Below, piece after piece: positions 2 through 22,900 of a stretch of DNA of 24,491 nucleotides. The position numbers and the translations under genes were made by a program. Position 1 is the first letter of the stretch; the number at the start of each line of letters is the position of its first letter. Under the pieces are notes generated by a model. That model did not search any database. It saw only the letters and a list, made by a program, of their open reading frames with translations, and had not been told where the DNA came from. The stretch is from a virus: the IMG/VR virus record IMGVR_UViG_3300020457_000092, positions 1-24,491 of that record, one strand, 5' to 3'.

Positions 2-2260
2 AATATTAAAAAATTAGTTGCAATATACCCAGGAAGATTTCAACCGTTTGGTCCACATCATAAGACATCTTATGAATTTTTAAAGTCTAGGTTTGACGAA
101 GTCTATATAGTCACGAGCGGCAAGACAGGTGGTGCTAGACATCCAATGAATTTTGCAGAAAAGAAAAAGCATATGATGAGAATGGGAATACCTGCTAAAG
201 CTATAAAGATGGAAAATCAGCCATATATACCAAAAAGTTTACTGTCAAAATTTGATGAAAACACAACAGCAGCTGTCTTTGCAGTAGGTGCAAAAGATGA
301 AGGACGTTTAACATCTGGCAAATATTTCTTACCATACAGGCAAAATTATAATAGACTAAAAGGGTTTAAAGAACAAGGATACACTTTAGAAATACCTCAC
401 ACTAGCATTAAAGTTGGAGGTATGGAAATAAGTGGTACAACGATGAGAAAATTGTTAGGTTCTGAAAAATTTGATTTAAATGCAAAAAAGAAATTCTTTC
501 AAAAAATGTTTGGATATTTTGATCAAAAAGTATTTGATAAATTTACAAAATCTTTTAAAGAAGAAATTAAATTAGATGTTAATGTAGGTGACACTATTTT
601 AGTTGGAAGATTTAAAAATAAAAAAATAAAAGTTAAAAATATCGCCAAAGACAAACACGGAATGCCTACAATAAACGGAAGAAAAATTGTTAACTTTAGA
701 AAGATGGAAGAAGCAGCAAGAAAGCCACGTAAAAAAGGGCAACATAGAAACTCCCCAAACCATTCTGACCTATATACAGACGAAAATCCAAAAGGCACAA
801 TCAAAGGTCTAAAGTTTGCTACTGTTAAAGATGCTATCGCATCTGTTAAGAAAATAAAAGGAAGTGGGAAATCACACGCACATAAGATACAAGCAGCAGT
901 TGCTATGGAGCAAAGAGCAAAAGAAATGGGTAAGAAAAGTGCTGCAGCTGTTTATAGAGCTTTTATAAATAAAATGAAAGAAAAAACAAAAAGAAAAAAT
1001 GAATCAAAAGAAAAGGAGTTATTGCTTATGGGAGGAGCCTATGGTCACATGGCACACCCGTTTGATGATTATGGATTGACCTTTGGAGAACTAAAGGACA
1101 TAATAGACTTAGGGTTACAGGGTAAATTAGACAAAGAAGAAGCCGTCACAGAGAAGCTAGACGGTCAGAATATAATGATTTCAGTTATAAACGGAAAAGC
1201 AAAAGCAGCAAGAAATAAAGGTGACTTAAAATCAGGTGGTATGAACTTGGCTGGTGTAAAAGCTAAATTTAAAAATCATATACCTAGTGTAAGAAATGCA
1301 TTTGTATTTGCTATGAGAGATATTGCAAATTCAATAGAAAAAATATCTAAAAAAGATCAAGATGCACTTTTTAATAACGGTAAGAACTGGGCAAATTTAG
1401 AAATAATCTATCCTGAAAATAAAAATGTTATTGATTACGACGGTTCTGCTACAATAGTTTTTCACGGTATATTGCAATATAATGAAGCTTGGACACCTTC
1501 TGGAGAAGTTAAGTCAGGAGGCGCAAGACTAGCAGCAGTAATTAATAAGACAAATGCAGCAATAAAGGCGAAGTTTGCGTTTAAAGGACCAAACATAGTA
1601 AAGCTTCACAAACCAAAAGACTATACAAGACTTAGAGCAAAATATATTGGGTCTTTGAGCAAGTTGCAGAATATATATAGATTAAAGGATAGCGACTCGC
1701 TATCGTTATGGCATCAACATTTTTGGTTAGAATACATATTAAACGGCGCAAATTCAACAGACTTTTCAAATATAACAGACAATATTTTGTATCCGCTTAT
1801 GAAGAGGTGGGCATTCTCTGATAAGAGCTTTACTATGAATCAAATAAATAAATTAAAAGATGAGCATCCGAAGTTTGTTGATTGGGTAAGAAAAACAGAA
1901 AAATTAGATCATCAGTCAATGTTAAAAAAGAATATGGAGCCATTTGAGCAAATATTTTTTGGTGTAGGAGCTGAGATACTGGCAAATGCAAGTAACTTTT
2001 TAAGTGCAACTCCAGACAAGACAACACAAAAATTAAGAAGTGAATTAGACGCAGCTTCAAAAGCTCTTTTAGCAAAGAAAGACTTCTCAAATATAGGAAA
2101 ACTAAAAGCACAACTTAAAAAATTAAAGTCAATGCCAAACATATCAAAAGTTGCACCGTCAGAAGGGATCGTATTTAAATACAATGGAAAAGTTTTTAAG
2201 TTTACAGGATTTTTTGCACCAATAAACCAGATCTTAGGATTAGAAAAATTTTCGAGGTAA
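2..2260 (+). CDS. Nucleotidyltransferase / ligase-like fusion protein (5' end cut by window)
   Basis: The frame is open from base 2, so the true start lies just left of the window; 752 codons are visible and residue numbers count from base 2. Residues 7-20 read VAIYPGRFQPFGPHH-like, the first strand and substrate loop of the HxGH nucleotidyltransferase superfamily. ISGTTMR at 143-149 fits the second conserved motif (ISxTxxR) of NMN/cytidylyl-transferase-like enzymes. A lysine-rich middle part follows, with HSDLYTDENP at 254 and AHKIQAAVAM near 292, a pattern met in other viral proteins. The C-terminal half has EKLDGQN (catalytic-type Lys385), ARNKGDL, LEIIYP (466-471), EGIVFK (721-726) and KVFKFTG (730-736), in the order of motifs I, Ia, III, IV and V of RNA/DNA ligases; the III-IV interval holds a large helical insertion. 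Two chemistries in one chain is inference from motifs; the substrates are unknown. It sits 2 bp before the next gene. Confidence 0.72.
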   Translation, partial: NIKKLVAIYPGRFQPFGPHHKTSYEFLKSRFDEVYIVTSGKTGGARHPMNFAEKKKHMMRMGIPAKAIKMENQPYIPKSLLSKFDENTTAAVFAVGAKDEGRLTSGKYFLPYRQNYNRLKGFKEQGYTLEIPHTSIKVGGMEISGTTMRKLLGSEKFDLNAKKKFFQKMFGYFDQKVFDKFTKSFKEEIKLDVNVGDTILVGRFKNKKIKVKNIAKDKHGMPTINGRKIVNFRKMEEAARKPRKKGQHRNSPNHSDLYTDENPKGTIKGLKFATVKDAIASVKKIKGSGKSHAHKIQAAVAMEQRAKEMGKKSAAAVYRAFINKMKEKTKRKNESKEKELLLMGGAYGHMAHPFDDYGLTFGELKDIIDLGLQGKLDKEEAVTEKLDGQNIMISVINGKAKAARNKGDLKSGGMNLAGVKAKFKNHIPSVRNAFVFAMRDIANSIEKISKKDQDALFNNGKNWANLEIIYPENKNVIDYDGSATIVFHGILQYNEAWTPSGEVKSGGARLAAVINKTNAAIKAKFAFKGPNIVKLHKPKDYTRLRAKYIGSLSKLQNIYRLKDSDSLSLWHQHFWLEYILNGANSTDFSNITDNILYPLMKRWAFSDKSFTMNQINKLKDEHPKFVDWVRKTEKLDHQSMLKKNMEPFEQIFFGVGAEILANASNFLSATPDKTTQKLRSELDAASKALLAKKDFSNIGKLKAQLKKLKSMPNISKVAPSEGIVFKYNGKVFKFTGFFAPINQILGLEKFSR

Positions 2261-2262
2261 AT

Positions 2263-2820
2263 ATGAGTTACAGTAAAGAAACAGAAAGACAAAATAAAGT
2301 ATTAGGCGATTTATTATCTGGAAGAGATCCAGAAAAAAGAATATTTGTCGGATATGAAGGTAAAAAGCAAAAACAAGGTGATGTAAAAAGTAGACTCACA
2401 GATATAATGGCAGAAGCTAGAATGCCGTGGTTTTGCCCTAAGTGTAAAAAGATAATGAAAAAACAGGCAGACAATAAAATGTGGATGTATTTTGGGCACT
2501 GTTTAGAATGTCAAGTTGAAGATGAACACAATATGAGAGTTAATGGCACATTTAAAGAGTTTGCTGAAAAGAAAGTTATAAGAAGTAAAATTAGTATGAT
2601 TAAAGAGCACATAGCACAAATAACAGACTGGAAGAAAAATACGACTTTTGAAAATATAGAACCGGTTAATGTCGATACGGGTTTTGTACATAAAGAAAAA
2701 TTTGAATTGTCACCTGAAATGATAAAAGATGCAGAAGACGCGATTGAAATGCTTAATGAAAAATTAGATAATTTTACGAACAGACTTAAAGAAATAGAAG
2801 ATGCAGAAAGACCTAACTAA
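2263..2820 (+). CDS. Zinc-ribbon protein at the gp16 (small terminase) position
   Basis: A 185-residue protein with one CPKC (Cys58, Cys61) and one CLEC (Cys80, Cys83) pair, a four-cysteine zinc-ribbon spacing. A basic N-terminus (about residues 1-50) precedes it, and the charged C-terminal half (about 100-185) looks helical, probably coiled coil. The start is ATG with GAGG seven bases upstream, inside the end of the preceding gene. Its last 20 bp overlap the large terminase gene, so the two are probably translationally coupled. T4 gene 16 (small terminase, DNA recognition) lies directly before gene 17, so position and a possible nucleic-acid-binding ribbon make this a candidate small terminase or terminase accessory factor. 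I see no sequence resemblance to T4 gp16, so the role is positional inference; a transcription-factor-like role is equally open. Confidence 0.6.
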   Translation: MSYSKETERQNKVLGDLLSGRDPEKRIFVGYEGKKQKQGDVKSRLTDIMAEARMPWFCPKCKKIMKKQADNKMWMYFGHCLECQVEDEHNMRVNGTFKEFAEKKVIRSKISMIKEHIAQITDWKKNTTFENIEPVNVDTGFVHKEKFELSPEMIKDAEDAIEMLNEKLDNFTNRLKEIEDAERPN

Positions 2821-4381
2821 TAAACAAATAAAAGAATATTTTAGAGAAGAGTACGTAAAGTGCGCTCTAGATCCAATATACTTTATGCGTCAATATTGCT
2901 ACATACAGCACCCTGTAAAAGGCAAAATTAAATTTGATCTTTATCCATTTCAAGAAAGAACCTTAAAAGATTTAAAAGATAATGATTATAATGTCATTTT
3001 AAAAGCAAGACAGTTAGGTATATCAACACTTACTGCAGGCTACTCCTTGTGGTTAATGAATTTTCACAATGATAAAAACATATTAGTAATTGCAACTAAA
3101 CAAGAAGTTGCAAAAAATCTTGTAACAAAAGTTAGAGTTATGCATAAACTTGCACCTGACTGGTTAAAACAAGGCTGTGTTGAAGATAATAAATTATCGT
3201 TGCGTTACAAAAATGGATCACAAATAAAAGCAATATCATCAACAAGTGAAGCAGGTCGTTCTGAAGCATTATCACTTTTAGTAATGGATGAAGCAGCATT
3301 TATTAAAAATATAGATGACATATGGGCTGCATCACAACAGACACTTGCAACTGGTGGTAAATGTATTGCATTATCTACACCAAACGGGATGGGAAACTGG
3401 TTTCATCAAACATGGGTTGGAGCCGAAGAAGGAACAAACAACTTTAATTTTATCAAATTACACTGGACAGTTCACCCAGAAAGAGACAAAAAATGGCGAG
3501 ATGATCAAAACGCATTATTAGGACCTGACATGGCAGCACAAGAATGTGACTGTGATTTTATAAGTTCAGGTCAGTCTGTGATACCTGCAGCAATAATAAA
3601 AGAATACCAAGATAAGTTTACATGTGATCCAATAGAAAAAAGATATAGTGACGGAATGTGGATATGGAAACATCCAGAACCAAACAAGAGGTATTTAATA
3701 GGGGCTGATGTTGCGAGAGGTGATGGTAGTGATTTTTCAGCGTTTCACATACTAGATATTGATACACTAGAGCAAGTAGCAGAATTTAAAGCAAAAGTAG
3801 ACACAACGAGATATGCAGGAATACTTGCTTCAATAGGCACAGAATATAATGATGCTGTACTAGTCGTTGAGAATAACAATGTTGGATGGGCAGTTTTACA
3901 AGTATTGCTAGACAGAGAATACAGAAATTTATTTTGGATGAAAAGAGATTTAAAGTATGTTGATACAAAAACACAATATACAAACAAGTACAGAAGAGAA
4001 GACAGAAATCAAATACCTGGATTTTCAACTACTATGAAAACAAGACCACTTATCATAGAAAAATTATCACAATTTATTAGAGAAAAACAAGTAAAAATAA
4101 ATTCAATTAGACTGATCGATGAATTATATGTTTTTATATTTAATAATGGGAAAGCGGAAGCTTTTAAAGGCTATAACGATGACTTGGTCATGAGTATGGC
4201 AATAAGTCTCTGGATCAGAGATACTAGTTTACGTCTTCATGAAGAAAACATGAGGATAACAAGAGAAACAATGAACAAAATGGGAGCAAGCTCTGGGGTT
4301 TACACTGTTGAAGCAGAAGAAGACTACGGCTGGAAACAAAAAGTAGCCGGCAAAAAAGAATCCATAACTTGGTTAATATAA
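2801..4381 (+). CDS. gp17: Terminase large subunit (T4 gp17-like)
   Basis: A 526-residue packaging motor and headful nuclease; T4 gp17 is 610. The N-terminal ATPase shows an adenine-binding-type YPFQERTL (48-55), a Walker A-like KARQLGIST (68-76), Walker B LLVMDEAAF (159-167, with Asp163 and Glu164) and the coupling motif ALSTPNG (190-196). The C-terminal RNase H-like nuclease has acidic residues in GADVARGDGSD (Asp303), VVENNN (Glu357) and YNDDLVMS (Asp460/Asp461). The Walker A lacks the usual GK(S/T) lysine; the lysine at 68 may substitute, as proposed for other terminases with shifted lysines. The ATG lies inside the end of the upstream gene. The next gene, the portal, follows after one base; docking of this ATPase on the portal is the known family mechanism. 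The family assignment is secure. Confidence 0.95.
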   Translation: MQKDLTNKQIKEYFREEYVKCALDPIYFMRQYCYIQHPVKGKIKFDLYPFQERTLKDLKDNDYNVILKARQLGISTLTAGYSLWLMNFHNDKNILVIATKQEVAKNLVTKVRVMHKLAPDWLKQGCVEDNKLSLRYKNGSQIKAISSTSEAGRSEALSLLVMDEAAFIKNIDDIWAASQQTLATGGKCIALSTPNGMGNWFHQTWVGAEEGTNNFNFIKLHWTVHPERDKKWRDDQNALLGPDMAAQECDCDFISSGQSVIPAAIIKEYQDKFTCDPIEKRYSDGMWIWKHPEPNKRYLIGADVARGDGSDFSAFHILDIDTLEQVAEFKAKVDTTRYAGILASIGTEYNDAVLVVENNNVGWAVLQVLLDREYRNLFWMKRDLKYVDTKTQYTNKYRREDRNQIPGFSTTMKTRPLIIEKLSQFIREKQVKINSIRLIDELYVFIFNNGKAEAFKGYNDDLVMSMAISLWIRDTSLRLHEENMRITRETMNKMGASSGVYTVEAEEDYGWKQKVAGKKESITWLI

Positions 4382-7051: not shown

Positions 7052-7469
7052 AAAATTAATAGAATTATTAAGAAAGCTCATACAAAAAGAATTAAAAGAG
7101 ATGAGCGTTACAGGTGGCATTGATGGAGGCGCAGGACCACCAAAAACACCGGCGGCGTTTAGGGACCCTAAGGACGATGAAAAAGATGAAGACGATTTAA
7201 AATTATCACCAGGTATGAGTGTTGTTAAAGAAAATTATTGGCATTTTAGAAATGATGATTCTATGTCAACAAAACAAAAACTAGCTAAGTCTATGACTGA
7301 AATTCGTAATAGAATGACTGAGATAGAAAAACTAGTAAAGTACAATGTAAAACTTAAAAACGAAATGAGATTCGAGTCAGCTAGTTACATGAAGCGAACA
7401 AAGATAGCACTAACAAAAATTTCAGAAAAACTTGTAAGACTTTCTCATAAAGTAAAGGACTTAGTATAA
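7035..7469 (+). CDS. Unknown protein at the T4 gp68 position
   Basis: A 144-residue protein with a basic helical N-terminus (residues 1-23), a glycine/proline-rich stretch around VTGGIDGGAGPPKTPAAF (25-42), an acidic patch of Asp, Glu and Lys (43-58) and a C-terminal helical region (about 80-144), probably coiled coil. The start overlaps the preceding gene by 17 bp and the stop overlaps the protease start as TAATG, giving tight coupling on both sides. T4 gp68, a prohead core protein in the same place, has 141 residues, a similar length, but I see no clear sequence match. Best guess: a small prohead core or internal head protein, from context only. Confidence 0.6.
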   Translation: MSSKNKKLIELLRKLIQKELKEMSVTGGIDGGAGPPKTPAAFRDPKDDEKDEDDLKLSPGMSVVKENYWHFRNDDSMSTKQKLAKSMTEIRNRMTEIEKLVKYNVKLKNEMRFESASYMKRTKIALTKISEKLVRLSHKVKDLV

Positions 7470-8065
7470 TGGACAAATCTTTATTAGTTGACGTAATTCC
7501 TTTTGAGGTAACACCAGACAAAGTAAATGAAGCTATTAGTACAAATGGTGGAAAACTTGTTGTTAAAGGTGTATTGCAAAGAGCAGAGGCAAGAAATCAA
7601 AATGGAAGAGTTTATCCAAAAGAAATATTAATGCGTGAAGCAAATAAGTATACAGATAATTTTATAAAAGAAAGAAGAGCCATGGGTGAGTTAGATCATC
7701 CTGATAGTTCAGTTATAAACTTGCAAAACGTTTCACATAATGTAATGGAGATGCATTGGAACGGAAATGATCTAGTAGGAACTGTAGAAGTATTAACAAC
7801 ACCTGCTGGAAATATTTTAAGAGAATTATTTAAAAGTGGAATTAAATTAGGTATTAGTTCAAGAGGTCTAGGCTCTATAAAACAAGAATCTGTTGGTGAC
7901 GAAGTTCAAGACGATTTTGAATTAATAGGATTTGATTTTGTTTCTAATCCTTCAACACACGGTGCCTTCTTAAGACCTGTTAATGAATCAGTTAACGGCA
8001 AAACAAGCAGTAATAAATGGCAAGGTGTTGAAAAAGCAGTATTTAACATCCTATCAGGAGAATAA
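7469..8065 (+). CDS. gp21: Prohead core protein protease (T4 gp21-like)
   Basis: A 198-residue serine protease (T4 gp21 is 212) that assembles in the prohead core, digests the scaffold and trims the capsid protein before packaging. The catalytic histidine is in GELDHP (His77), and the nucleophile serine is in GISSRGLGS (Ser130 or Ser131), the two hallmark motifs of T4-type prohead proteases. GVLQRAEARNQNGRVYP (34-50), an N-terminal stretch shared with phage prohead proteases generally, and a conserved GFDFVSNPS (about 153-161) also fit. The ATG overlaps the upstream TAA as TAATG. The presence of an IDE/A site in the capsid protein (9993-11633) supports activity. Confidence 0.93.
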   Translation: MDKSLLVDVIPFEVTPDKVNEAISTNGGKLVVKGVLQRAEARNQNGRVYPKEILMREANKYTDNFIKERRAMGELDHPDSSVINLQNVSHNVMEMHWNGNDLVGTVEVLTTPAGNILRELFKSGIKLGISSRGLGSIKQESVGDEVQDDFELIGFDFVSNPSTHGAFLRPVNESVNGKTSSNKWQGVEKAVFNILSGE

Positions 8066-8550: not shown

Positions 8551-8748
8551 ATGTCAATAAAAGTTAAGGTTACAAATAACAAATACGAATTTGCATTAAG
8601 AAAATTTAAGAAAAAAGTAAAAGAAGCAGGAATATTACATGAGCTTCAACAACGACAGTTTTATGTAAAACCTTCAGCAATAAAAAGAGATCGAAGAGCA
8701 AAAGGAAGATTAAGAGCTCAAATTAGATCAAAAAAAGCTGAACTTTAA
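8551..8748 (+). CDS. rpsU: Phage-encoded ribosomal protein bS21
   Basis: A 65-residue basic protein (E. coli bS21 is 71). The stretch EFALRKFKKKVKEAGILHEL followed by QQRQFYVKPSAIKRDRRAKG aligns along its length with bS21: the FxxALRRFKR helix, the KAG(I/V)L turn and the RR(Q/E)FYxKP motif are all present, followed by a Lys/Arg-rich tail ending RSKKAEL. bS21 sits on the 30S platform near the anti-Shine-Dalgarno end of 16S rRNA and takes part in initiation. Phage copies, including in SAR11 phages, are known from earlier surveys. The ATG has AGAGG eight bases upstream. It is odd that this gene lies among head genes, directly before the scaffold leader, rather than with early takeover genes; it would therefore be made late. 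Confidence 0.93.
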   Translation: MSIKVKVTNNKYEFALRKFKKKVKEAGILHELQQRQFYVKPSAIKRDRRAKGRLRAQIRSKKAEL

Positions 8749-8867: not shown

Positions 8868-9977
8868 ATGGATAAACTATTAAAAGAAGCAATTGCTGAC
8901 GCAAAAGCCGTGCGCGAAACTGCATTAGCAAATGCAAAAATAGCCCTCGAAGAGGCCTTTACCCCACATCTGAAATCAATGCTATCTAAGAAGCTTCAAG
9001 CTGAAATGGATGGCGAAGATGAGGAAAAAGCCGATGAAGGTTATCATGGTGAAGAAGAAGAGGAAATCGAAGAGAATGACGTTTCTTCAGACATCGGATC
9101 TAGTGATAATAAAGAACCTGCTAAAGCAGGTGACACTTCTATGATAGGACAAGGTCCTGAGTCTGAAGGTGATGATGAAGAAGGCGGCGAAGAAGATGAA
9201 AATCTTGAAAAAGCCCCTGATCAGCCAGTAGGCGAAGGATATGGCATGGATGACGAAGACGAAGATCCAAAAGAAGAAGGTGCACACATGGACGACGAAG
9301 AAATGGAAGAAGGTGAGCACATGGACGATGAGGATGATGACGTCGAAGAAGTCTTACGCCAATTAGAAGCTGAAATGAATGACGAAGAAGAAGATATGAA
9401 AGAAGAGATGGAAGACGAAGACAAAGATATGGACGAAGAAATGGAAGACGAAGATGAAGACAAGAAAGAAGAAGGCGCTCATATGGATGACGAAGACAAA
9501 GATATGGACGAAGAAATCGATCTTGATGAAATCATTAAAGCTCTAACAGAAGAAGAAGGTATGGAAGACGAAGACAAAGATATGGACGAAGAGATGGAAG
9601 ACGAAGAAATGGAAGAAAATAGCGAACTCGAAGAGTATAAGAAGACAGTTCTTTACTTGAAGAATAAGCTTTCCGAAGTCAACCTACTCAACGCTAAACT
9701 TCTTTACACAAACAAGCTATTCAGAAGCAGAAACGTAACTGAAGAACAGAAAATGAAAGTAATTGAGCAATTTGACAGAGCTGCTAACGTACGCGAAGTT
9801 AAACTTGTTTTTACTACATTTGCTGAATCAATGAAGCGTAAACCTGTTAATGAGTCTGCTAAACGTGTAAGTCAAGCTTCTAAACCAACAGCTTCTACAC
9901 AACCTAAGAAGAAACCAATAATCGGCGAAAATACGGATTTTAAATCTCGTATGAAGAAACTCGCTAACATTATTTAA
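8868..9977 (+). CDS. gp22: Prohead core scaffolding protein (T4 gp22-like)
   Basis: A 369-residue protein (T4 gp22 is 269) that forms the internal core around which the capsid protein assembles and is then degraded. The N-terminus (1-45) is helical and mixed in charge, with LEE/A near residue 28 as a possible protease site. Residues ~47-252 are an extreme Asp/Glu/Met-rich low-complexity region with recurring GAHMDDE and DEDKDMDEE units. The C-terminal part (253-369) is helical and ends in a basic tail with SRMKKLANII. Length, acidity, position between protease and capsid genes and the AAGGGAG ribosome site all fit. The extra length relative to T4 is in the acidic repeats. Codons are richer in GAC, AAC and CGT than in genes to the left. 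It ends 15 bp before gp23, with which it is presumably cotranscribed. Confidence 0.88.
   Translation: MDKLLKEAIADAKAVRETALANAKIALEEAFTPHLKSMLSKKLQAEMDGEDEEKADEGYHGEEEEEIEENDVSSDIGSSDNKEPAKAGDTSMIGQGPESEGDDEEGGEEDENLEKAPDQPVGEGYGMDDEDEDPKEEGAHMDDEEMEEGEHMDDEDDDVEEVLRQLEAEMNDEEEDMKEEMEDEDKDMDEEMEDEDEDKKEEGAHMDDEDKDMDEEIDLDEIIKALTEEEGMEDEDKDMDEEMEDEEMEENSELEEYKKTVLYLKNKLSEVNLLNAKLLYTNKLFRSRNVTEEQKMKVIEQFDRAANVREVKLVFTTFAESMKRKPVNESAKRVSQASKPTASTQPKKKPIIGENTDFKSRMKKLANII
9414..9595 (+). repeat. Internal repeats of the scaffold gene
   Basis: A 29-base unit beginning GACGAAGACAAAGATATGG occurs at 9414-9442, 9489-9517 and 9567-9595; the first two copies are identical and the third has one change. 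The spacings, 75 and 78 bases, keep the reading frame. The unit encodes a DEDKDMDEE-type peptide. Unequal recombination could expand or contract the acidic region. Confidence 0.75.
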
Positions 9978-9992
9978 TTACGGAGAAAAATC

Positions 9993-11633
9993 GTGTCTTA
10001 CAAGAACGAACTAAAAGACGTAATGGGTGGATATAATCCACATAATGAGCTTCTTGCTTCCTCTCGTAAATTGGTTTCTAAGTGGGAACCAACAGGCCTT
10101 TTAGAAGGACTTAAAAATGAGAGTGAAGTTTCCGGTATGGCTGTACTCTTGGAAAACCAAGCAAAACAGTTAATCGATGAAGCTTCAAATGTTGGAACTT
10201 CAGCTAATCAAGAACAGTGGAGCGGTGTTGCTCTACCATTAGTTCGCAGAATATTTGCTGAATTATCCGCGCAGGAATTTGTTTCTGTGCAACCTATGAA
10301 CCTACCGTCTGGTCTAATTTTCTATTTAGACTTCAAATATGGTTCAACACAACAGCATGGATCTTTGCACTCTAAAGGTGCTGATATCTATGGTGACACA
10401 TCAAGTTCTGGTGATCCTTCTGGTGGCCTTTATGGCGCTGGAAAATGGGGTTACTCGATCAATGATGTAACTGTAAACCCTGGCTTCTCAACTGGATCAG
10501 TATCTATTGCTGATATCAGAGGTGATGCTAACTTGTCTGCTTCTCAAGCAGCTGGAAACTTAGTAAAAGTTAACATTTCTGGATCACAGTTATCCGGTGC
10601 AGACTTAGAAGGTGTAAAAGCTTTCTCAGTAACTGGATCTATTGCAGGAACTGGTGCGCCACTTACTGCTTATTATCCAGCTTTTACAACCTATACTCCT
10701 TCAACAGACATGATCAGCTTTATTGTTGATCCTGCAGCAGTTGATGGAGGTGGTAGCTTAGATCCAGCTTCTGGAAGTATTCAGGTAAATTATCACAAGC
10801 AACCAACAGACATCACCAGAGGTGATTTCGAGGCTAACTCAGCTGCTGAAGGATCTAATCCTGAAGAAGATAATGCTGGTATACCTGAAGTTGATATTCA
10901 AATGCGTTCAATCGCAATTACTGCTAAAACTCGTAAGTTAAAAGCTGTATGGACTCCTGAGCTAGCTCAAGATCTTAACGCTTATCACGCTGTTGATGCA
11001 GAAGCTGAATTAACATCTATGTTGTCTGAGTACGTAACTATGGAAGTTGACTTAGAAATCATTGACATGTTGAAGCTTAATGCTTCTGCAAAGACTGAGT
11101 TCTGGTCAGCTGAATTAGGCTACGAATGGAATGGATCTGCTTTTGTACAATCAGGTGCAAACGTAGCTGCTTACACAAAAGGTGAGTGGTTCCAAACACT
11201 TGGTAACAAGATACAGTCAGTATCTAACAACATCCACAAGAAAACACTTAGAGGTGGAGCTAACTTCATTGTCGTAAGCCCTGAAGTTGCTACAATTCTA
11301 GAGTCAATCCCAGGATTCGCTACAGACTCAGACGCTGATGTGACTAAGTCTTATGCGATGGGTGTTCAGAAGATAGGTGCTCTTAATAATCGTTTTAACG
11401 TTTATAAGAACCCTTACTTACAGGACGATCAAATCCTTGCTGGATTTAGAGGTGCTCAGTTCCTTGAAACAGGTGCTGTATATGCTCCTTACGTTCCGTT
11501 GATCTTAACACCAGTTGTTTATGATCCAACAAACTTCACACCTCGTAGAGGCGTGATGACAAGATATGCTAAGAAGATGGTTCGCCCAGAATTCTACGGT
11601 CTTGTTAACGTTGCTAAATCTGATCTTGTGTAA
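9993..11633 (+). CDS. gp23: Major capsid protein precursor (T4 gp23-like)
   Basis: A 546-residue protein (T4 gp23 is 521) that forms the HK97-fold hexamers of the head. ALPLVRRIFAELSAQEFVSV (about 81-100) followed by QPMNLPSGLIFYLDF is the signature of T4-like capsid proteins, and MRSIAITAKTRKLKAVWTPE further on is equally typical. The C-terminus, with RYAKKMVRPEFYGLV, also fits. A prohead-protease site, LIDE/A, is visible at residues 60-64, close to the T4 cut at residue 65; the mature protein would begin at Ala64. The start is GTG, chosen because GGAG lies seven bases upstream and the N-terminus MSYKNELKD is in register. Arg is mostly CGT/CGC here, whereas AGA dominates in the terminase and fibre genes, consistent with very high expression. 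A strong terminator follows. Confidence 0.96.
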   Translation: MSYKNELKDVMGGYNPHNELLASSRKLVSKWEPTGLLEGLKNESEVSGMAVLLENQAKQLIDEASNVGTSANQEQWSGVALPLVRRIFAELSAQEFVSVQPMNLPSGLIFYLDFKYGSTQQHGSLHSKGADIYGDTSSSGDPSGGLYGAGKWGYSINDVTVNPGFSTGSVSIADIRGDANLSASQAAGNLVKVNISGSQLSGADLEGVKAFSVTGSIAGTGAPLTAYYPAFTTYTPSTDMISFIVDPAAVDGGGSLDPASGSIQVNYHKQPTDITRGDFEANSAAEGSNPEEDNAGIPEVDIQMRSIAITAKTRKLKAVWTPELAQDLNAYHAVDAEAELTSMLSEYVTMEVDLEIIDMLKLNASAKTEFWSAELGYEWNGSAFVQSGANVAAYTKGEWFQTLGNKIQSVSNNIHKKTLRGGANFIVVSPEVATILESIPGFATDSDADVTKSYAMGVQKIGALNNRFNVYKNPYLQDDQILAGFRGAQFLETGAVYAPYVPLILTPVVYDPTNFTPRRGVMTRYAKKMVRPEFYGLVNVAKSDLV

Positions 11634-11660
11634 GCTAGATTAATTTAGAACATCATATAA

Positions 11661-11690
11661 AAGGGCTCCATTTTTTGGAGCCCTTTTTTT
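11661..11690 (+). terminator. Rho-independent terminator after the capsid gene
   Basis: AAGGGCTCCA (11661-11670) pairs perfectly with TGGAGCCCTT (11676-11685) around a TTTTT loop. An uninterrupted run of seven T ends at 11690. This 10-bp GC-containing stem in AT-rich DNA is the clearest terminator in the window and separates the head unit from the neck/tail unit. Confidence 0.93.
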
Positions 11691-11717
11691 ATTTCTTCCA
11701 ATATTGTTAAAATCTTC

Positions 11718-11731
11718 ATATTTATAAATGA
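11718..11731 (+). promoter_or_regulatory. Candidate late promoter, copy 2
   Basis: ATATTTATAAATGA is identical to copy 1 at 6169. It lies just downstream of the terminator and 23 bases before the neck gene start, where a new promoter is expected. A 10-bp palindrome, GAAACGTTTC, sits at 11730-11739. TATAAATG resembles the T4 late element TATAAATA. Confidence 0.6.
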
Positions 11732-11754
11732 AACGTTTCTAACTGGAGAATGTA

Positions 11755-12909
11755 ATGTCAGTAACAATTTGGGAAGGCAGTAGCTCTTTTTCTACAGGGC
11801 AGACGCCTTACGGTTTTTATGACTCAGATAACGAATTTACATCTTCTGCTGATCAATTTTCAGACTGGGCAGCCAGAAGGTTAGGTTATCCTATAGTTGA
11901 TGTAGAACTACAATCAGGTTCTTTTTACGCATGTTTTGAAGAATCAGTAACAGAATACTCTGCACAAGTAAACCAATTTAATATAAGAGATAATTTATTA
12001 CATTTGCAAGGTCAAGCGACAGGCTCAGACCTTACAGGTAAAAGAGTTACACCAACTTTAGGAAGGACTGTATTTTTAAGCCAGCAATACGGAACTGAAG
12101 CAGGTGCTGGTGGTTATGTTGACTGGAAAAAAGGTAGCATAACAATTACTAGCGGAAGCCAAGAGTATGACTTAAATGCACTATACGCAGCAGTTTCAGA
12201 ATCAGGAAACGGTGCTATAGAAATAAAGAAAGTATATCATGAAGCACCACCTGCAATAAATAAATACTTTGATCCTTATGCTACAACAGGATATGGAACA
12301 GCAAATTTTGTAGAAGGTTTTGGATTTGGTGATTATTCTCCGGCTGTTTCATTCGTATTAATGCCAGTTTTTGAAGATTTATTAAGAATGCAAGCTATAG
12401 AGTTTAATGATCAAATAAGAAAATCTGCCTATTCATTTACACTAGTTAATAATAAATTAAGAATATTTCCTATTCCAGAAAAGAATACAAGACTACACTT
12501 CGATTATGTAATAACAAAAGATAGAGATGATGCACTATTAATGCCGTCAGGATCAGATCCTAATTCAATATCAGATTACTCAAATGCACCATATAATAAT
12601 ATGCAGTATCAATACATAAATGATGTTGGAAAACAATGGATACGAAAATATGGTTTAGCACTTACAAAAGAATTATTAGGGACAGTTAGAGGAAAATTTG
12701 GTACAGTCCCAATACCAAATTCTGAAGTTAGCATGGATGGTGAAACACTTAGAGCTGAAGCAACTTCAGAAAAAGAAGCTTTAATACAACAGCTTAGAGA
12801 GAATTTAGAACAAACTAGTAGAAAAATGATGATGGAGGCTGATAGTGAAGAGAGCACAAGATTGCAAGAAAAATTAAATAAAGTTCCACTCAATATCTAC
12901 ATAGGATAA
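11755..12909 (+). CDS. gp13: Neck protein (T4 gp13-like)
   Basis: A 384-residue protein (T4 gp13 is 309). An N-terminal helical element, FSDWAARRLGYPIVDVELQS (35-54) followed by FYACFEESVTEYS, has the pattern of head-completion/neck adaptors of T4-like marine phages. The C-terminal region, WIRKYGLALTKELLGTVRGK followed by FGTVPIPNSEVSMDGETLRAEA, and the charged helix at about 335-380 fit the same family. In T4, gp13 and gp14 close the filled head and provide the tail-docking surface. The ATG has TGGAG seven bases upstream. The gene is the first of a unit beginning after the capsid terminator, with its own candidate promoter. The assignment to gp13 rests on remembered family patterns, not on a computed alignment. 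Confidence 0.68.
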   Translation: MSVTIWEGSSSFSTGQTPYGFYDSDNEFTSSADQFSDWAARRLGYPIVDVELQSGSFYACFEESVTEYSAQVNQFNIRDNLLHLQGQATGSDLTGKRVTPTLGRTVFLSQQYGTEAGAGGYVDWKKGSITITSGSQEYDLNALYAAVSESGNGAIEIKKVYHEAPPAINKYFDPYATTGYGTANFVEGFGFGDYSPAVSFVLMPVFEDLLRMQAIEFNDQIRKSAYSFTLVNNKLRIFPIPEKNTRLHFDYVITKDRDDALLMPSGSDPNSISDYSNAPYNNMQYQYINDVGKQWIRKYGLALTKELLGTVRGKFGTVPIPNSEVSMDGETLRAEATSEKEALIQQLRENLEQTSRKMMMEADSEESTRLQEKLNKVPLNIYIG

Positions 12910-12913
12910 AAAA

Positions 12914-13399
12914 ATGGCAGGTCGCTTTTTAAGGTCGAGAGATAAAGAATTTTTTGATACTGTCAATAAAGAATTGTTAGGCAATCCACAGACAAACAAG
13001 TCTGGTATCATAAATCAAGAAGTCATAGCATATAAAGTATCTGTTTATGAGACAGAGACAAATTTATACGGCGAAGCATCTTCAGGGAAACGTTACCAAA
13101 ATGGTGTCAAGCTAACATGTTTAGTTACAGCAGACGATTTTGATTATGATACAAATGAATTTGGACCTAGCGCAAATCAAAATGCTAGTTTCGCTTTCTT
13201 AAGACAGCAACTAATAGACGCAAATTATGTGCCTGATGTAGGTGATGTAATAGAATGGAATTATGGTTTCTTTGAGATTGCCACAATAAATGAGAACCAG
13301 TTACTAGCAGGAATGCAAGAAAATAATCATTCTGTTGTTTGTAACGGATTTTTAGCTGATCCAACAAAAGTTGGCTTAAGCAGGAGTAGAGGAATTTAA
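12914..13399 (+). CDS. Short neck/head-completion protein, gp14-like
   Basis: A 161-residue protein. NLYGEASSGKRYQNGVKLTC (51-70) is reminiscent of the gp14 segment in which a conserved FGED is found, and PDVGDVIEWNYGFFEIATIN matches the gp14 pattern of a GDL/I strand followed by (L/F)FEI. T4 gp14 is 256 residues, so this is a shorter and diverged version lacking the C-terminal part. It starts with ATG four bases after the gp13-like gene, with AGGA upstream, and its stop overlaps the next start as TAATG. Gene order 13-14-15 is as in T4, which supports the call. Another adaptor in the head-to-tail joint would be the alternative. Confidence 0.5.
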   Translation: MAGRFLRSRDKEFFDTVNKELLGNPQTNKSGIINQEVIAYKVSVYETETNLYGEASSGKRYQNGVKLTCLVTADDFDYDTNEFGPSANQNASFAFLRQQLIDANYVPDVGDVIEWNYGFFEIATINENQLLAGMQENNHSVVCNGFLADPTKVGLSRSRGI

Positions 13400-17563: not shown

Positions 17564-19693
17564 ATGGCACAAATTATAAAACATAGAAGAGGTACAGCAG
17601 CTCAGCTAAAAACAGTAACTCTTCAAAAAGCAGAATTAGGTGTATCAACTGGATCGGTATCAGGAATTGAAACACCTGTATTGCATGTAGGTGACGGCGC
17701 TAATGCGGCTGGGTTTGTTGTAGGTCGCTTATTTCAAGGCTCTACAGTACCAACTCTTAATTCAGGCAATATCGGTTCTTCTTTAAATGATTTATTATTT
17801 CATGATTCAGCGACTTATAAACTAGTAAAATTACATACTAGCGGCAATGAAACACTCGATCTGACAGGAAATATTGCAAATAACAAAATAACAGGTAGCT
17901 TAATAGCATCTGGAAATATTAGTGGTTCAGCAACCTCAACTGGATCATTCGGATACGTAAACGTCGCAGGTGATATATCTGCATCAGGAAATATTCATGC
18001 TGTAGGAAATATTACTTTTGAGGGTGGAAGTTCTGGCACAATTACAATGGGGTCAGGAGCAGACGATAATATCGTACTTGCTGGTGATGTAAACTCAAAT
18101 ATTAGACCAAATACAGATAATACATTTGATCTCGGTTCTGATAGCCAGCAATGGAGAGACTTATATTTAAATAGAATAGCATACATTGATCAATTAGGTA
18201 CTGATGCAGATCCTACAACAGCTTATATAGGTGGCGGTGAAATTGATGGAGCAGTAATAGGCGGAGAATCAGCTGCTGCAGGTACTTTTACAGCTATTGT
18301 TGGTACATCATTAGATATGAACGGCAATGTTGATATTGATAATGCAACAACAGAAATTGATTCTACAAGCACAGTATCGATAGATGCAGGTGGTGCTTCT
18401 AATTTTACGACATCAAATGGTACATTAACATTAGCTGGCGCAGGAGGAGTAACAGTAACATCAACAGGTGGGACATTAACACTAAATGGTGCTGGACAAA
18501 CTGTTGATATTGACGGTGCTGCAATTAATATTGATGCATCTTCTGCATTATCACTCGATGCTGCTGCTGCATCTAATTTTTCTACTTCTGATGGCGCAAT
18601 AACAATCGACGGTAAGACTGGAATTAATATAAAAGAGAACGGTACTAATGTAATTGTAATTGACACAAATCAAGATATTTTATTCGGAGCAACAGGAGGT
18701 TCGACATCAGATCCAGACATAGAAGTTGATGGATACACAAGATTTGATGGCCAAGTAGAAGTAGCGAATACAACAACTTCAACATCAACAACAACTGGTG
18801 CATTAGTTGTAGATGGCGGTGTTGGTATCGGAGAAAATTTACATGTAGGTGGAAATACAGTTGTAACAGGTGATCTGACAGTTGTAGGCACAAATACATA
18901 TGTAAGCTCAAGTGTTGTATCACTTGGTGATAGTATTGTAACATTAAATGCACTCAACAATGCAGTAGATGGTGGTATACAGGTAATAGATGTTAGTGGA
19001 TCTTCAACTGGAAGTGGTTTAGCTAGTGCTAATCCTACGGGTTCATTATTATGGAATGCAGCGAATGATTATTGGTATTCAGGAGTTAGTGGATCAACTC
19101 ACTATAGATTACCACAACAAGCATCAAACGGTACACTAACAGAAAATAAAGTTTTAATAGCAGATGCAAACGGCAGGATAGAACCTTCATCAAATATAAC
19201 TGATAACGGGTCTACAATTGATGTTAATGACGTAAATATTACTAGTATTGATAAATTAGAAGGTGTTGATGCAAATACATTTATCGACATAGGTGCATCT
19301 GATACAATTGAAACCAAGGGTAATATTGTACCAAATGTCAATAATGCAGACACACTCGGTACAGACTCAAAAAGATTCTCAGATTTATTCTTAGACGGTA
19401 ATGCAGATATTGATGGAACATTAAATGTTCAGGGCATAACAGATATTCAAGCAAAAGTACATGCACAAGCTGGACTCGAAGTTACAGGATCAGTATTCGT
19501 AAGTGCTGGTGCTAGTGTTGAGGCAACTGGAAGTGCTGTAGGTAGTAGAATTGCTTTTAGAAATCAAAGCAATACACAGCTAGGATATTTATCATCAGAC
19601 ATGACAAGTGATGTTATCAGTGGTATTATAGGATATAATGAGTCAAATAACAATCTGACTGTTAGTAATGTAATTGATGGCGGCTCGTTCTAA
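17564..19693 (+). CDS. Phage fibre/adhesin protein
   Basis: A 709-residue protein. It begins MAQIIKHRRGTAAQLKTVTL followed by QKAELG, the N-terminal motif of many tail-fibre-type proteins. Next come a GSATSTGSFG linker (about 123-132), IRPNTDNTFDLGSDSQQWRD, a typical marine-phage fibre segment, and GGGEIDGAVIGGESAAAGTF. Residues ~240-370 are short TLTLAGAGGVTVT-like strands suggesting a beta-helix, then TTTSTSTTTGALVVDGGVGI, GNTVVTGDLTV and a later WRD-like repeat (SKRFSDLFLDGNADIDG). No lyase, peptidase or chaperone motif is seen. The ATG has AGGAAAAGAG eight bases upstream, and the stop overlaps the next start as TAATG. The N-terminus is shared with the giant fibre at 19937, suggesting a common docking site. 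Confidence 0.72.
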   Translation: MAQIIKHRRGTAAQLKTVTLQKAELGVSTGSVSGIETPVLHVGDGANAAGFVVGRLFQGSTVPTLNSGNIGSSLNDLLFHDSATYKLVKLHTSGNETLDLTGNIANNKITGSLIASGNISGSATSTGSFGYVNVAGDISASGNIHAVGNITFEGGSSGTITMGSGADDNIVLAGDVNSNIRPNTDNTFDLGSDSQQWRDLYLNRIAYIDQLGTDADPTTAYIGGGEIDGAVIGGESAAAGTFTAIVGTSLDMNGNVDIDNATTEIDSTSTVSIDAGGASNFTTSNGTLTLAGAGGVTVTSTGGTLTLNGAGQTVDIDGAAINIDASSALSLDAAAASNFSTSDGAITIDGKTGINIKENGTNVIVIDTNQDILFGATGGSTSDPDIEVDGYTRFDGQVEVANTTTSTSTTTGALVVDGGVGIGENLHVGGNTVVTGDLTVVGTNTYVSSSVVSLGDSIVTLNALNNAVDGGIQVIDVSGSSTGSGLASANPTGSLLWNAANDYWYSGVSGSTHYRLPQQASNGTLTENKVLIADANGRIEPSSNITDNGSTIDVNDVNITSIDKLEGVDANTFIDIGASDTIETKGNIVPNVNNADTLGTDSKRFSDLFLDGNADIDGTLNVQGITDIQAKVHAQAGLEVTGSVFVSAGASVEATGSAVGSRIAFRNQSNTQLGYLSSDMTSDVISGIIGYNESNNNLTVSNVIDGGSF

Positions 19694-19887
19694 TGGATAA
19701 AAAATTAAAGAGTAAAGTAAGAAACTGGATTAAGAAAACAGCTGAATTAGGAAAAGAGTTAGATTCTCTAAATAGAGAGGCTAATAAAAGTAGTTTTTCA
19801 CAGAGCCAGAGGCAGTTAGAATTTGTACAGACAGACTATAGGCAGTTTTTTAGTGCAGTAAAAAGACTTTATCAATTAGTAAAGTAA
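19693..19887 (+). CDS. Small unknown protein between fibre genes
   Basis: A 64-residue, Lys/Arg-rich (12 of 64) helical protein, probably coiled coil; no known domain. The ATG overlaps the TAA of the 709-residue fibre gene as TAATG, so coupling is likely and reading-through of ribosomes is the probable source of translation, since no separate ribosome site is obvious. The C-terminal half, QRQLEFVQTDYRQFFSAVKR, has aromatic and hydrophobic residues at helical spacing. A fibre-assembly helper or fibre-binding subunit is possible from context, but nothing in the sequence shows it. Confidence 0.55.
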   Translation: MDKKLKSKVRNWIKKTAELGKELDSLNREANKSSFSQSQRQLEFVQTDYRQFFSAVKRLYQLVK

Positions 19888-19911
19888 GTTTGCAAACTAG
19901 GGTATATACCC
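19887..19911 (+). repeat. Two adjacent 12-bp palindromes before the giant fibre gene
   Basis: AGTTTGCAAACT (19887-19898) and GGGTATATACCC (19900-19911) are both perfect palindromes, separated by one base, in the 49-bp gap before the giant fibre gene. They could be dimeric protein sites or short RNA hairpins. No promoter-like 14-mer like those at 6169, 11718 and 17520 is present in this gap. Confidence 0.5.
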
Positions 19912-19936
19912 AAATACATAAAGGAGCCGTTATATA

Positions 19937-22900
19937 ATGGCACAAATAATTAAACTGAGACGGTCAGCCGTCACAGGTAATGTTCCAACAACGTCACAAT
20001 TAGGACTCGGTGAGTTAGCAATAAACACTGCTGACGGAAAAATTTACTTTGAGAAGAATGACGGATCTCCAACCATTCAAACAATTGTTACAACAAATTC
20101 ACAAACTACAGGATCAATTGAAATAACTGGAAACATAAGCGGTTCAGCTACATCAACTGGTTCGTTTGGTTCTTTAAAAATTGCTGATGCACATCAAGGT
20201 ACTTTAAAAATAAATGGTGGATTAACATTAGCTGGTTCTGGTCCTAACATTAATGGTGCTGGTGGTAATGTATACATGGTGTCTACCAATTTTATTGTAA
20301 GGTCAAATATTAGTAACGATAGTGGTGATGTAAAAGTTACTGACAATCTAACTGTAACTGGCAATGTAAGTGGTTCAGCAACGTCAACTGGTTCGTTTGG
20401 TTTCATTCAAGTAGAGAAAGACAATAAAATAGAATTTAAAGGTGGTGTTAATGATATATCATTAAGAAATACATCATCAAATTTATTAGTTCTAAGATAT
20501 GGTGCAAATGATAGGATACAGTTTGGAAATGGTGCTATATTTGTAACTCAGTATTTGGGTGCTAACATACCATCTTATACATTTGATGGAATGACAAACT
20601 ATGGATTAGCTGGTGGTAATAGTTCTATATCTTTAATGGCTGCTGGTAATCATGCTTTAACCATTGATAGTAACTCAAATGCAAGCTTTAGAGGAAATGT
20701 AAGTGGTTCATCAACCTCAACAGGTTCGTTTGGTAGGGTAGAAACTCCTGGTGGTGTTGTAATTGATAATGGTAATGTAAGTGGTTCAGCAATTTCAACT
20801 GGTTCGTTTGGTAGAATAGAAGCGACAACATTTGATACAGCAAATGTAACATCAACAGATGTATCAGTCACAAATGATATGACAGTGACAGGAAACATAA
20901 GTGGCTCAGCAACATCGACTGGCTCTTTTGGTAGAGTATTTGCAGAGACAATAAATATTAATACAAAAATTGATCAAGCCTCACTAACTATAGGAAATGG
21001 AAGCTCACCTTTTATATTTAACAGTAATAACGGCGGAATAATAGTTGGGTCTAAGACTACTATGAGGCTAGTCAGCAACGGACTAGAATACTTAAATACA
21101 TCCGGTGGAACATCACATAAATTTTTTACAAATCTAAATCAGACATTAACTGTTACAGATACATTAATAAGCGGATCCGCTATTACGACTGGTTCGTTTG
21201 GTTCTTTAGGTGTAGGTCTTGCAGCTCCAAGTGTAGCACTTGAGGTAGATGGAACAATAAAACAAAATGTAATTAAGATTCGTAATGATGGCTTAGCAGG
21301 ATATATAGAACAACAAGGTGACTTTGGCGGCAGCACAATGTTTATTAGGCAACTTGGCGCTAATCATGATATAAGATTTCAAACAAATAAAGGCGGTGCA
21401 ACTACAACTGCTCTTGCCATAGATGGACTAACACACTACATTGGCATTGGCACAGAGAGCCCTTCTAATATACTTCATGTATCTACTGCTGACAATATCG
21501 TGGCAAAATTTGAATCTACAGATGCTAATGCTACTCTTAACTTAGTCGATAATAGTACATCAAATGCCAGTACATTTAAGAGAACTGCTAATGATTTAAA
21601 GATTTTAGAAAACGGTGGTAATGTATTATTTCCAGGTGCAAATGTAAAGGTAAGCGGTTCTGCAACTTCAACTGGCTCATTCGGGTCATTAGTTGTTTCA
21701 GATGCTGTTCAGGGCAACTTAACAATTGAAGGAGACTTAATAGCAAGACAATATATTGTATCTTCATCTGTTACACACTTAACGTCATCAACAGTTAGTG
21801 GTTCTTCGACATTTGGTGATAGCATGGATGACACTCATCAGTTTACTGGTTCTCTAAATGTAACTGGTTCTGTTGAAGTATCTGGTCATATAACTGGCTC
21901 ATCAACTTCAACTGGTTCTTTTGGTAGAGGTGTTGTTGCTGATACACTTAGGGTAAATAGTACCGACTCTTCAACAACGGAAATGGTCATCAAATCAAGC
22001 GATACAGACCATGCAGTATTTCTTATAAAGGCAAGTGATGGTATCCAGGGTTTAAGAATAGATGAGAGTAGTGGTGGTGATGTTAATCTTACTATGAGAG
22101 ATACATCTGGTAATGCTGATATAGTTTTTCATCCGGGTACACATTCATACTTTAATAACAATGGCAACTTTGGTATCGGCACCACGAGTCCTGGTGCTAA
22201 GTTAGAAGTAATTGGTGACATAAGTGGTTCAGCAACCTCAACTGGTTCGTTTGGTATGGTGCATACTGAGGGTGTAAGAGGATTAGATGGAAACTATAGT
22301 ACTGCGTTATTAGTACCAGACACTTTAAGATTTGGAAATGATACGGATTCTGAGTTTAGAAGAAGAACTTCAAACGAAGTTGAGTTTAGAATGGCTGGTA
22401 CGGATATGGTCAGGATAAACACAACTGGTTTATTTGTTGAGGCTGGTAGTTTAGAAGTTGAAAGTGGTAATATAATAGCAAGTGGTAACATAAGTGGTTC
22501 AGCAACATCAACTGGTTCGTTTGGTGCTGGTTACATAGATAACAAGTTGGGTATAGGCACAACAAGTCCAGATGAAGAGATTCATATTGTAGGTAATAAT
22601 GCTAGTATTAAATGGGAAGAATCTGGTGGAAGTATAGGTAGGTTAGTGTCTCAAGGAGCTAGTAGTGGTACATCTTTATTTACTCAAGGTTCAACTCCTT
22701 TACATTTAGCAACAAACACCCAAGGTCCAAGTGCTGATTATTCAATAAAGTTAGATGGTAGTTCTAAGAATGTAGAATTTGCTGGTAATGTAAGTGGTTC
22801 AGCAACCTCAACTGGTTCGTTTGGTAAAGTAGAATCAGATTTATATAAAGTAGGTAATGATAACTTCTTTATTGGTCAAACTGCTGGTGCACCTGTTAGT

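Follow-up and report, generated by a model that had tools for sequence, protein, structure and literature searches.

The question that this locus raises is why a single phage reading frame should encode two nucleotidyltransferases that belong to different superfamilies, of which the second has the RNA-ligase motifs I to V. We analyzed it in a linear virus record of 24,491 bases (the window). The window opens with an ORF (positions 2 to 2260, plus strand, as are all of the features located within it below) that encodes 752 amino acids and has no start within the contig, its 5' end lying beyond the contig edge. Close full-length homologs have approximately 225 further N-terminal residues, among them L005, which is 84% identical to the window protein, so the contig edge truncates the window gene. 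The truncated polyprotein consists, in order, of a nucleotidyltransferase (NTase) domain, an RFKNK module, a phrog_727 module, and a ligase domain. A preliminary description of this DNA had recognized the two enzymes in one frame, and our analysis bears this out. At the far end of the window (17564 to 24490), two large ORFs contain many GNISGSATSTGSFG-like repeat copies and are probably tail or fiber proteins.

Sequence comparisons identify the N-terminal domain (2 to 559) as a predicted NMNAT/cytidylyltransferase-like NTase of the HIGH superfamily. The cytidyltransferase family phrog_395 was matched by 16/16 homologs (best, 1.1e-11), several homologs passed the cut-off for PF01467 (CTP_transf_like; for example, with 35.3 bits), and the best solved relatives of the NTase profile were NMN adenylyltransferases (chains 1f9a and 2qjt). 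The ISGTTMR motif that had been reported for this domain is present (residues 143 to 149; positions 428 to 448). The HxGH N-terminus that had also been reported is not, as the window protein reads GRFQPF-GPHH (residues 11 to 20; positions 32 to 61), with the first histidine replaced by glycine. Other clades have a canonical GRFQPFHxGH, with GPHH found in the window clade, and L119 has a divergent NTase (GSFKPMTGGH) that the profile overlooked. With the first histidine lost, the window NTase may or may not be active.

The C-terminal 409 residues belong to one conserved family (67 sequences), in which motif I (KxDG) and then motifs Ia, III, IIIa, IV, and V were found in order. In the window, this RNA-ligase-like (Rnl1-like) covalent nucleotidyltransferase domain occupies positions 1028 to 2260. 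It contains EKLDGQN, with the predicted AMP-accepting Lys385 of motif I (1154 to 1156), ARNKGDL starting at residue 403, NLEIIYP (motif III), EGIVFK, with Glu721 of motif IV (2162 to 2164), and KVFKFTG, with Lys733 of motif V (2198 to 2200). All of these motifs are where they had been placed, except that the motif III glutamate, previously numbered 468, is Glu467 (1400 to 1402). The motifs are conserved and are not there by chance, because ligase-domain residues E41, K42, D44, G45, A60-K63, E124, E378, G379, K390, T392, and G393, which cover motifs I, Ia, III, IV, and V, do not vary among the 67 homologs. The 12-residue spacing from Glu721 to Lys733 was also correctly reported and compares with 13 residues (Glu227 to Lys240) in T4 RNA ligase 1 (Rnl1, gp63). 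What had been overlooked is the distance from Glu467 to Glu721, which is 254 residues versus 68 in T4 Rnl1 and reflects a long helical insertion.

Alignment of the ligase half with T4 Rnl1 by hhalign placed Lys385 on Lys99 and NLEIIYP on NFEFVAP (Glu159), with a score of 31 for T4 Rnl1 and 30 for Rnl2, whereas none of six T4 control families scored above 22. The ligase half was modeled with AlphaFold from 64 sequences; the model had a pLDDT of 92.2 and a pTM of 0.89 and replaced an earlier model built from 25 close homologs (pLDDT, 75). The fold of the C-terminal half had been named in the preliminary description as a point on which its ligase reading could be checked, and this check came out in favor of that reading. 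When the model was searched against the PDB with Foldseek, ranks 1 to 15 (E, 0.009 to 0.19) were all RNA ligases or close kin, with T4 RNA ligase 1 first and with an Aquifex ligase, T4 RNA ligase 2, and archaeal RNA ligases among them, and the first 23 matches were all ligases. The modest E values (0.009 and up) are plausibly due to the approximately 190-residue helical insertion between motifs III and IV, and the fold evidence from this model lies in the consistency of the ligase list rather than in single E values. No ligase was matched when the whole window protein was searched against the PDB as a single sequence or when profiles of the ligase half were compared with PDB sequences. We considered an NAD-dependent DNA ligase as the identity of this half; the fold search puts RNA ligases first.

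The Pfam RNA_ligase match of the ligase half (E, 6.7e-4) scored 20.3 bits, below the cut-off of 27, and we therefore treat this half as a divergent superfamily relative and do not count it as a PF09414 member. Motifs I, Ia, III, IIIa, IV, and V and the aligned Lys99 and Glu159 are features that it shares with T4 Rnl1, its best PDB fold match, whereas sequence identity is approximately 11% and the extra residues between motifs III and IV, mainly helical, are peculiar to the window ligase. The chain ends soon past motif V, 19 residues beyond Lys733, and the C-terminal helical domain of Rnl1 is absent, with helices inserted between motifs IIIa and IV instead. For this reason we do not file the ligase half as Rnl1 proper, although its motifs predict that it is of the Rnl1 type in its working.

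Relatives of the ligase were found on at least 585 stretches in IMG/VR (profile scan, confirmed) and on six MAG contigs that are probably viral. The GenBank phages that carry it are Microcystis phage Mel-JY01 and two uncultured huge-phage genomes. Database copies of the family bear only the name cytidyltransferase-like, and our literature searches found no named RNA ligase-cytidylyltransferase fusion and nothing on Mel-JY01. Among 66 homologous loci with more than 5 kb of downstream sequence, a T4-type large terminase lies downstream on the same strand in 65. In the window, the plus-strand genes that follow include those for the T4-type terminase large subunit (2801 to 4381; PF03237, 1e-11), a prohead protease of the peptidase S77 (T4 gp21) family (7469 to 8065; PF03420, 4.5e-29), and the major capsid protein Gp23 (9993 to 11633; PF07068, 1.3e-77). 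The capsid protein has a candidate cleavage site, I-D-E/A (the slash marks the proposed cut), after residue 63, and this stretch is also present in three homologs. Between the protease and the scaffold, where Mel-JY01 has a gene with the annotation RpsU (ribosomal protein S21), is a small basic protein (8551 to 8748). A very acidic, repetitive protein (MEDEDKDMDEE; 8868 to 9977) lies between the protease and the capsid protein, the same place as that of the T4 scaffold gp22.

This gene order bears on whether the ligase half might, in the manner of T4 gp63 in its second activity, attach tail fibers or act structurally in some other way, with no need to seal RNA. The locus does lie in a structural gene block, and the domain is Rnl1-like by profile and fold and gives a weak match to PHROG 562 ("RNA ligase and tail fiber protein attachment catalyst"; E, 0.035). 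However, the residues for nucleotidyl transfer are all invariant, the neighbors are head and packaging genes and not tail fiber genes, and in the Mel-JY01 genome a ligase-like match of the PF09414 type occurs separately, at another place; we regard a structural role as very unlikely. The link to morphogenesis that had been suggested earlier finds support in a different sense: the gene is in the head and packaging block and looks like one for head-packaged cargo, but we found no evidence for tail fiber attachment.

The homologs range from 644 to 1909 residues in length and carry swappable modules between the two constant domains or ahead of them. The kinds of module include phrog_727, RFKNK, DDGP, Zeta-toxin/AAA_33 kinase, CCA-adding-enzyme-like, ParB-like, and Zn_protease. 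In the window, the small RFKNK module EIKLDVNVGDTILVGRFKNKK (563 to 703) recurs at other positions in homologs. Residues approximately 240 to 340, overlooked in the preliminary description, form an exchangeable phrog_727 module (713 to 1009) that shares approximately 70% identity with stretches of hypothetical proteins from cyanophages and also occurs alone in cyanophages. The Zeta_toxin/AAA_33 kinase module is present in four homologs other than L117, and the module of L117 has a CCA-adding-enzyme-like PolyA_pol head (E, 1.5e-29) with an RNA-binding domain. L117 (829 to 6555) is the 1909-residue homolog and has this module ahead of the NTase and ligase; its contig was binned as a Flavobacteriales MAG yet has a T4-type terminase. 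L003 has a ParB-like domain and L068 a Zn_protease (PF05618) domain that we take not to be a zincin, and no zincin family was among the Pfam matches of 15 long homologs. In the middle of the L010 and L011 polyproteins there is an R...SLS...EQE pattern that recalls ADP-ribosyltransferases; we dropped an ADP-ribosyltransferase-like reading of this module, as neither Pfam nor PDB sequences supported it. L027 and L029 have, between the NTase and the ligase, a segment LLPIIQKYI...GTMLLIPPIIQLAKKF.INLLP, which presumably resembles a LETM1-like domain.

The borders of the modules carry a recurring mark. A hydrophobic-x-Glu sequence stands at a fixed offset before the kinase (9/9), phrog_727 (9/9), RFKNK (13/13), and DDGP (21/26) modules, before the NTase (40/47, at two offsets), and before one class of ligase domain, which we call E-type (48/48), compared to a background of 1.6% of positions overall. 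These counts come from related sequences and are not independent events, and for the E-type ligase the search pattern itself demands the glutamate, so that only the hydrophobic P3 counts there as independent evidence. The window has such prohead-protease-like junctions at F185-K186-E187 (554 to 562), ahead of the RFKNK module, and at M235-E236-E237 (704 to 712), ahead of the phrog_727 module. At the E-type ligase junction, (L/I)-x-E/GGAYGH, P3 is L or I in 52/52, and the protein motif is kept while the codons are not. Counting against a prohead-protease reading, P1' is not constant (Q ahead of the NTase, D or E ahead of RFKNK), and V, M, or F sometimes takes the place of L/I at P3. T4 gp21 cleaves after L/I-X-E (PMC9026906), and the gp21-family protease encoded in the window genome itself is the processing enzyme that we propose.

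Many complete homologs also have an (L/I)xE-ending N-terminal leader, in the region where the window copy is truncated. These leaders include MNKLTEWLTKPFLxE, MSLKKLVEEITKPILQE/G, and MDRLVKQLITPFITE, as well as MKFLKSYEEFLNENLILE/GG in the huge phage LR756500, and they resemble MKTYQEFIAE/A of T4 IPII/III. The capsid-targeting leaders of T4 internal proteins are 10 to 19 residues long (PMC9026906).

Entry into the ligase domain is of two types that are mutually exclusive. In 45 of 98 nonredundant junctions, including that of the window, the residue preceding GGAYGH is Met and not Glu (M-type). The Lys-Glu codons at M-type junctions are AAGGAG in 39/41, compared to 2/283 elsewhere in the same ORFs, and this hexamer lies 9 nt before the ATG. 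In the window, the conserved, Shine-Dalgarno-like AAGGAG over the Lys-Glu codons is at 1013 to 1018 and the in-frame ATG, the proposed start of a free 410-amino-acid ligase (M-GGAYGHM...), is at 1028 to 1030; the preliminary description had overlooked both. A scan of IMG/VR with a junction pattern that admitted all four Lys-Glu codings gave 99 distinct stretches, with 91 AAGGAG, 8 AAAGAG, 0 AAAGAA, and 0 AAGGAA. This bias is as predicted for an internal ribosome-binding site. T4 gp21 has its own internal start, Met45 (PMC9026906), which provides a precedent for an internal-initiation device. On the ligase tree there are 9 switches of junction type, at least 7 of which are forced by well-supported branches.

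The same signals could be read otherwise, with hydrophobic-x-Glu as a linker preference or the site of another protease and AAGGAG-ATG as a recombination tag that aids shuffling. The modules do shuffle, and the DNA of M-type junctions is similar between distant clades, as such a tag would have it. Against this, AAGGAG hardly varies, unlike the three Leu codons that separate it from the ATG, and E-type junctions maintain their protein motif and not their codons. Moreover, the site is of the kind known to be cut by the protease family whose gene lies downstream, and the genes of the window have GGAG-type sites at similar spacing. We consider this other meaning of the junctions unlikely.

The NTase is in the same ORF as the ligase in nearly every complete homolog (ORFs with their 5' end inside the contig). 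The exceptions are L031, a split gene whose separate ligase ORF retains the internal-type start, L004 (LR756500), where the two are neighboring genes, and L120, whose sequence is interrupted by N. The free ligase of LR756500 is followed by a gene (11244 to 13214) with an N-terminal ENLDGS stretch and then an NTase; this stretch is possibly a ligase-like motif I with Asn for Lys, and the protein an inactive ligase paralog. L118 (4285 to 7242) has the reversed order, with a phrog_727-like module, the ligase, and then an NTase with canonical HxGH.

Co-occurrence this regular, which extends even to L119 with its divergent TGGH NTase, would be expected of one bifunctional enzyme in which the ligase domain uses the NTase product (e.g., NAD or a dinucleotide) and the fusion serves catalytic coupling. 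The product of an NMNAT and the donor of a ligase are also both adenylates. The coupling of both reactions in one chain was the original proposal for this protein, and it does not agree with what we found between the domains, where cut-like sites or an internal ribosome-binding site are conserved exactly at the border and unrelated modules intervene. Nor does it agree with the reversed order in L118, the separate genes in LR756500 and L031, or a fold search that ranks RNA ligases and not NAD-dependent ligases. A coupled enzyme is, in our judgment, decidedly unlikely.

We instead judge it probable that the ORF encodes a head-targeted, processed, and probably injected polyprotein with NAD and RNA-repair enzymes, the ligase of which is, in the window, also freed by internal initiation. 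The modular polyprotein of these T4-like phages would be made together with the head proteins, and a short N-terminal peptide would target it into the prohead. There, the S77 prohead protease would divide it at the hydrophobic-x-Glu sites into separate enzymes, which would travel in the head and pass into the cell along with the DNA. One constant cargo would be the NMNAT-like NTase, restoring or supplying NAD, and the other the Rnl1-like ligase, sealing broken RNA such as tRNA cut by host defenses. The kinase, CCA-adding, and other modules vary, and the first two would fit RNA repair. At approximately half of the sampled junctions, including that of the window, an internal ribosome-binding site and ATG would replace the cut site before the ligase, and free ligase would be translated alongside the fused chain, so that it could act without head processing. 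An M-type ligase without a cut site speaks against its packaging, which would need the uncut chain. What the sequences show is the domains, their modularity and synteny, the conserved junctions, and the conserved internal Shine-Dalgarno-like element and ATG; that the chain is cleaved, packaged, and injected, that translation starts at the internal ATG, and that the enzymes catalyze these reactions is our inference. The chances seem to us evenly balanced that the separators are interchangeable in a cassette-built polyprotein, either a protease site or a ribosome-binding site with ATG, with repeated switches between lineages, and that the cargo is a head-delivered NAD and RNA repair kit.

This family of RNA-ligase-like proteins is large, abundant, and so far unnamed in marine T4-like phages. 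Our reading offers shared delivery, rather than shared chemistry, as the reason for the NMNAT-like fusion, and it suggests that RNA and NAD repair may reach the cell with the phage, ahead of all gene expression. It also ties the unexplained NMNAT of cyanophage virions to targeting and cutting of the T4 kind and yields sequence rules, open to testing, by which other head-packaged enzymes might be spotted.

NMNAT-like or cytidylyltransferase proteins have been detected by mass spectrometry in virions of cyanophages S-SCSM1, S-CREM2, S-CBWM1, and S-SZBM1, with the authors' caveat that the NMNAT was possibly carried over in purification (PMC9602691, PMC10665884). We take the single phrog_395 protein encoded by S-SCSM1 (E, 1.8e-107) to be the virion NMNAT (ORF91). 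It starts with MKSFLQFLKE/AA, a 10-residue leader with the length and ending of that of T4 IPIII. We know of no virion proteome of any member of the fused family. The virion proteins of T4-like cyanophages (S-SCSM1 ORF91 and S-CREM2 ORF154) are like the proteins described here in their NTase family (phrog_395, checked for S-SCSM1) and CTS-like leader, and theirs were detected in virions. Unlike in our loci, a profile search by sequence found no recognizable copy of this ligase family in the related S-PM2, which has the NTase; in a structure search with the ligase, a BFVD model of an S-PM2 cytidyltransferase-like protein matched with an E of 5e-4.

The T4 internal proteins IPI-III and Alt share with our family a short (L/I)xE-ending leader, an S77 protease in the same genome, and a proposed role as head cargo, but they are single proteins with a leader, whereas here modules stand in series with a site before each. 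The polyvalent proteins (Iyer et al. 2017, PMC5512222) are likewise large, with unrelated enzyme domains in one chain, and are encoded near virion genes. They are predicted to be injected and cut apart, with processing ascribed to a built-in zincin-like metallopeptidase (PMC5512222), whereas the separators here fit the phage's own prohead protease or are an internal start codon. A word search of that paper did not find a HIGH-type NTase, and it mentions RNA ligases only as not associated with its 2H domains (PMC5512222). The system described here resembles polyvalent proteins without the zincin and T4 internal proteins placed in series. Given this likeness, with differing separators and serial modules, we regard it as a variant of known systems with a divergent ligase family inside.
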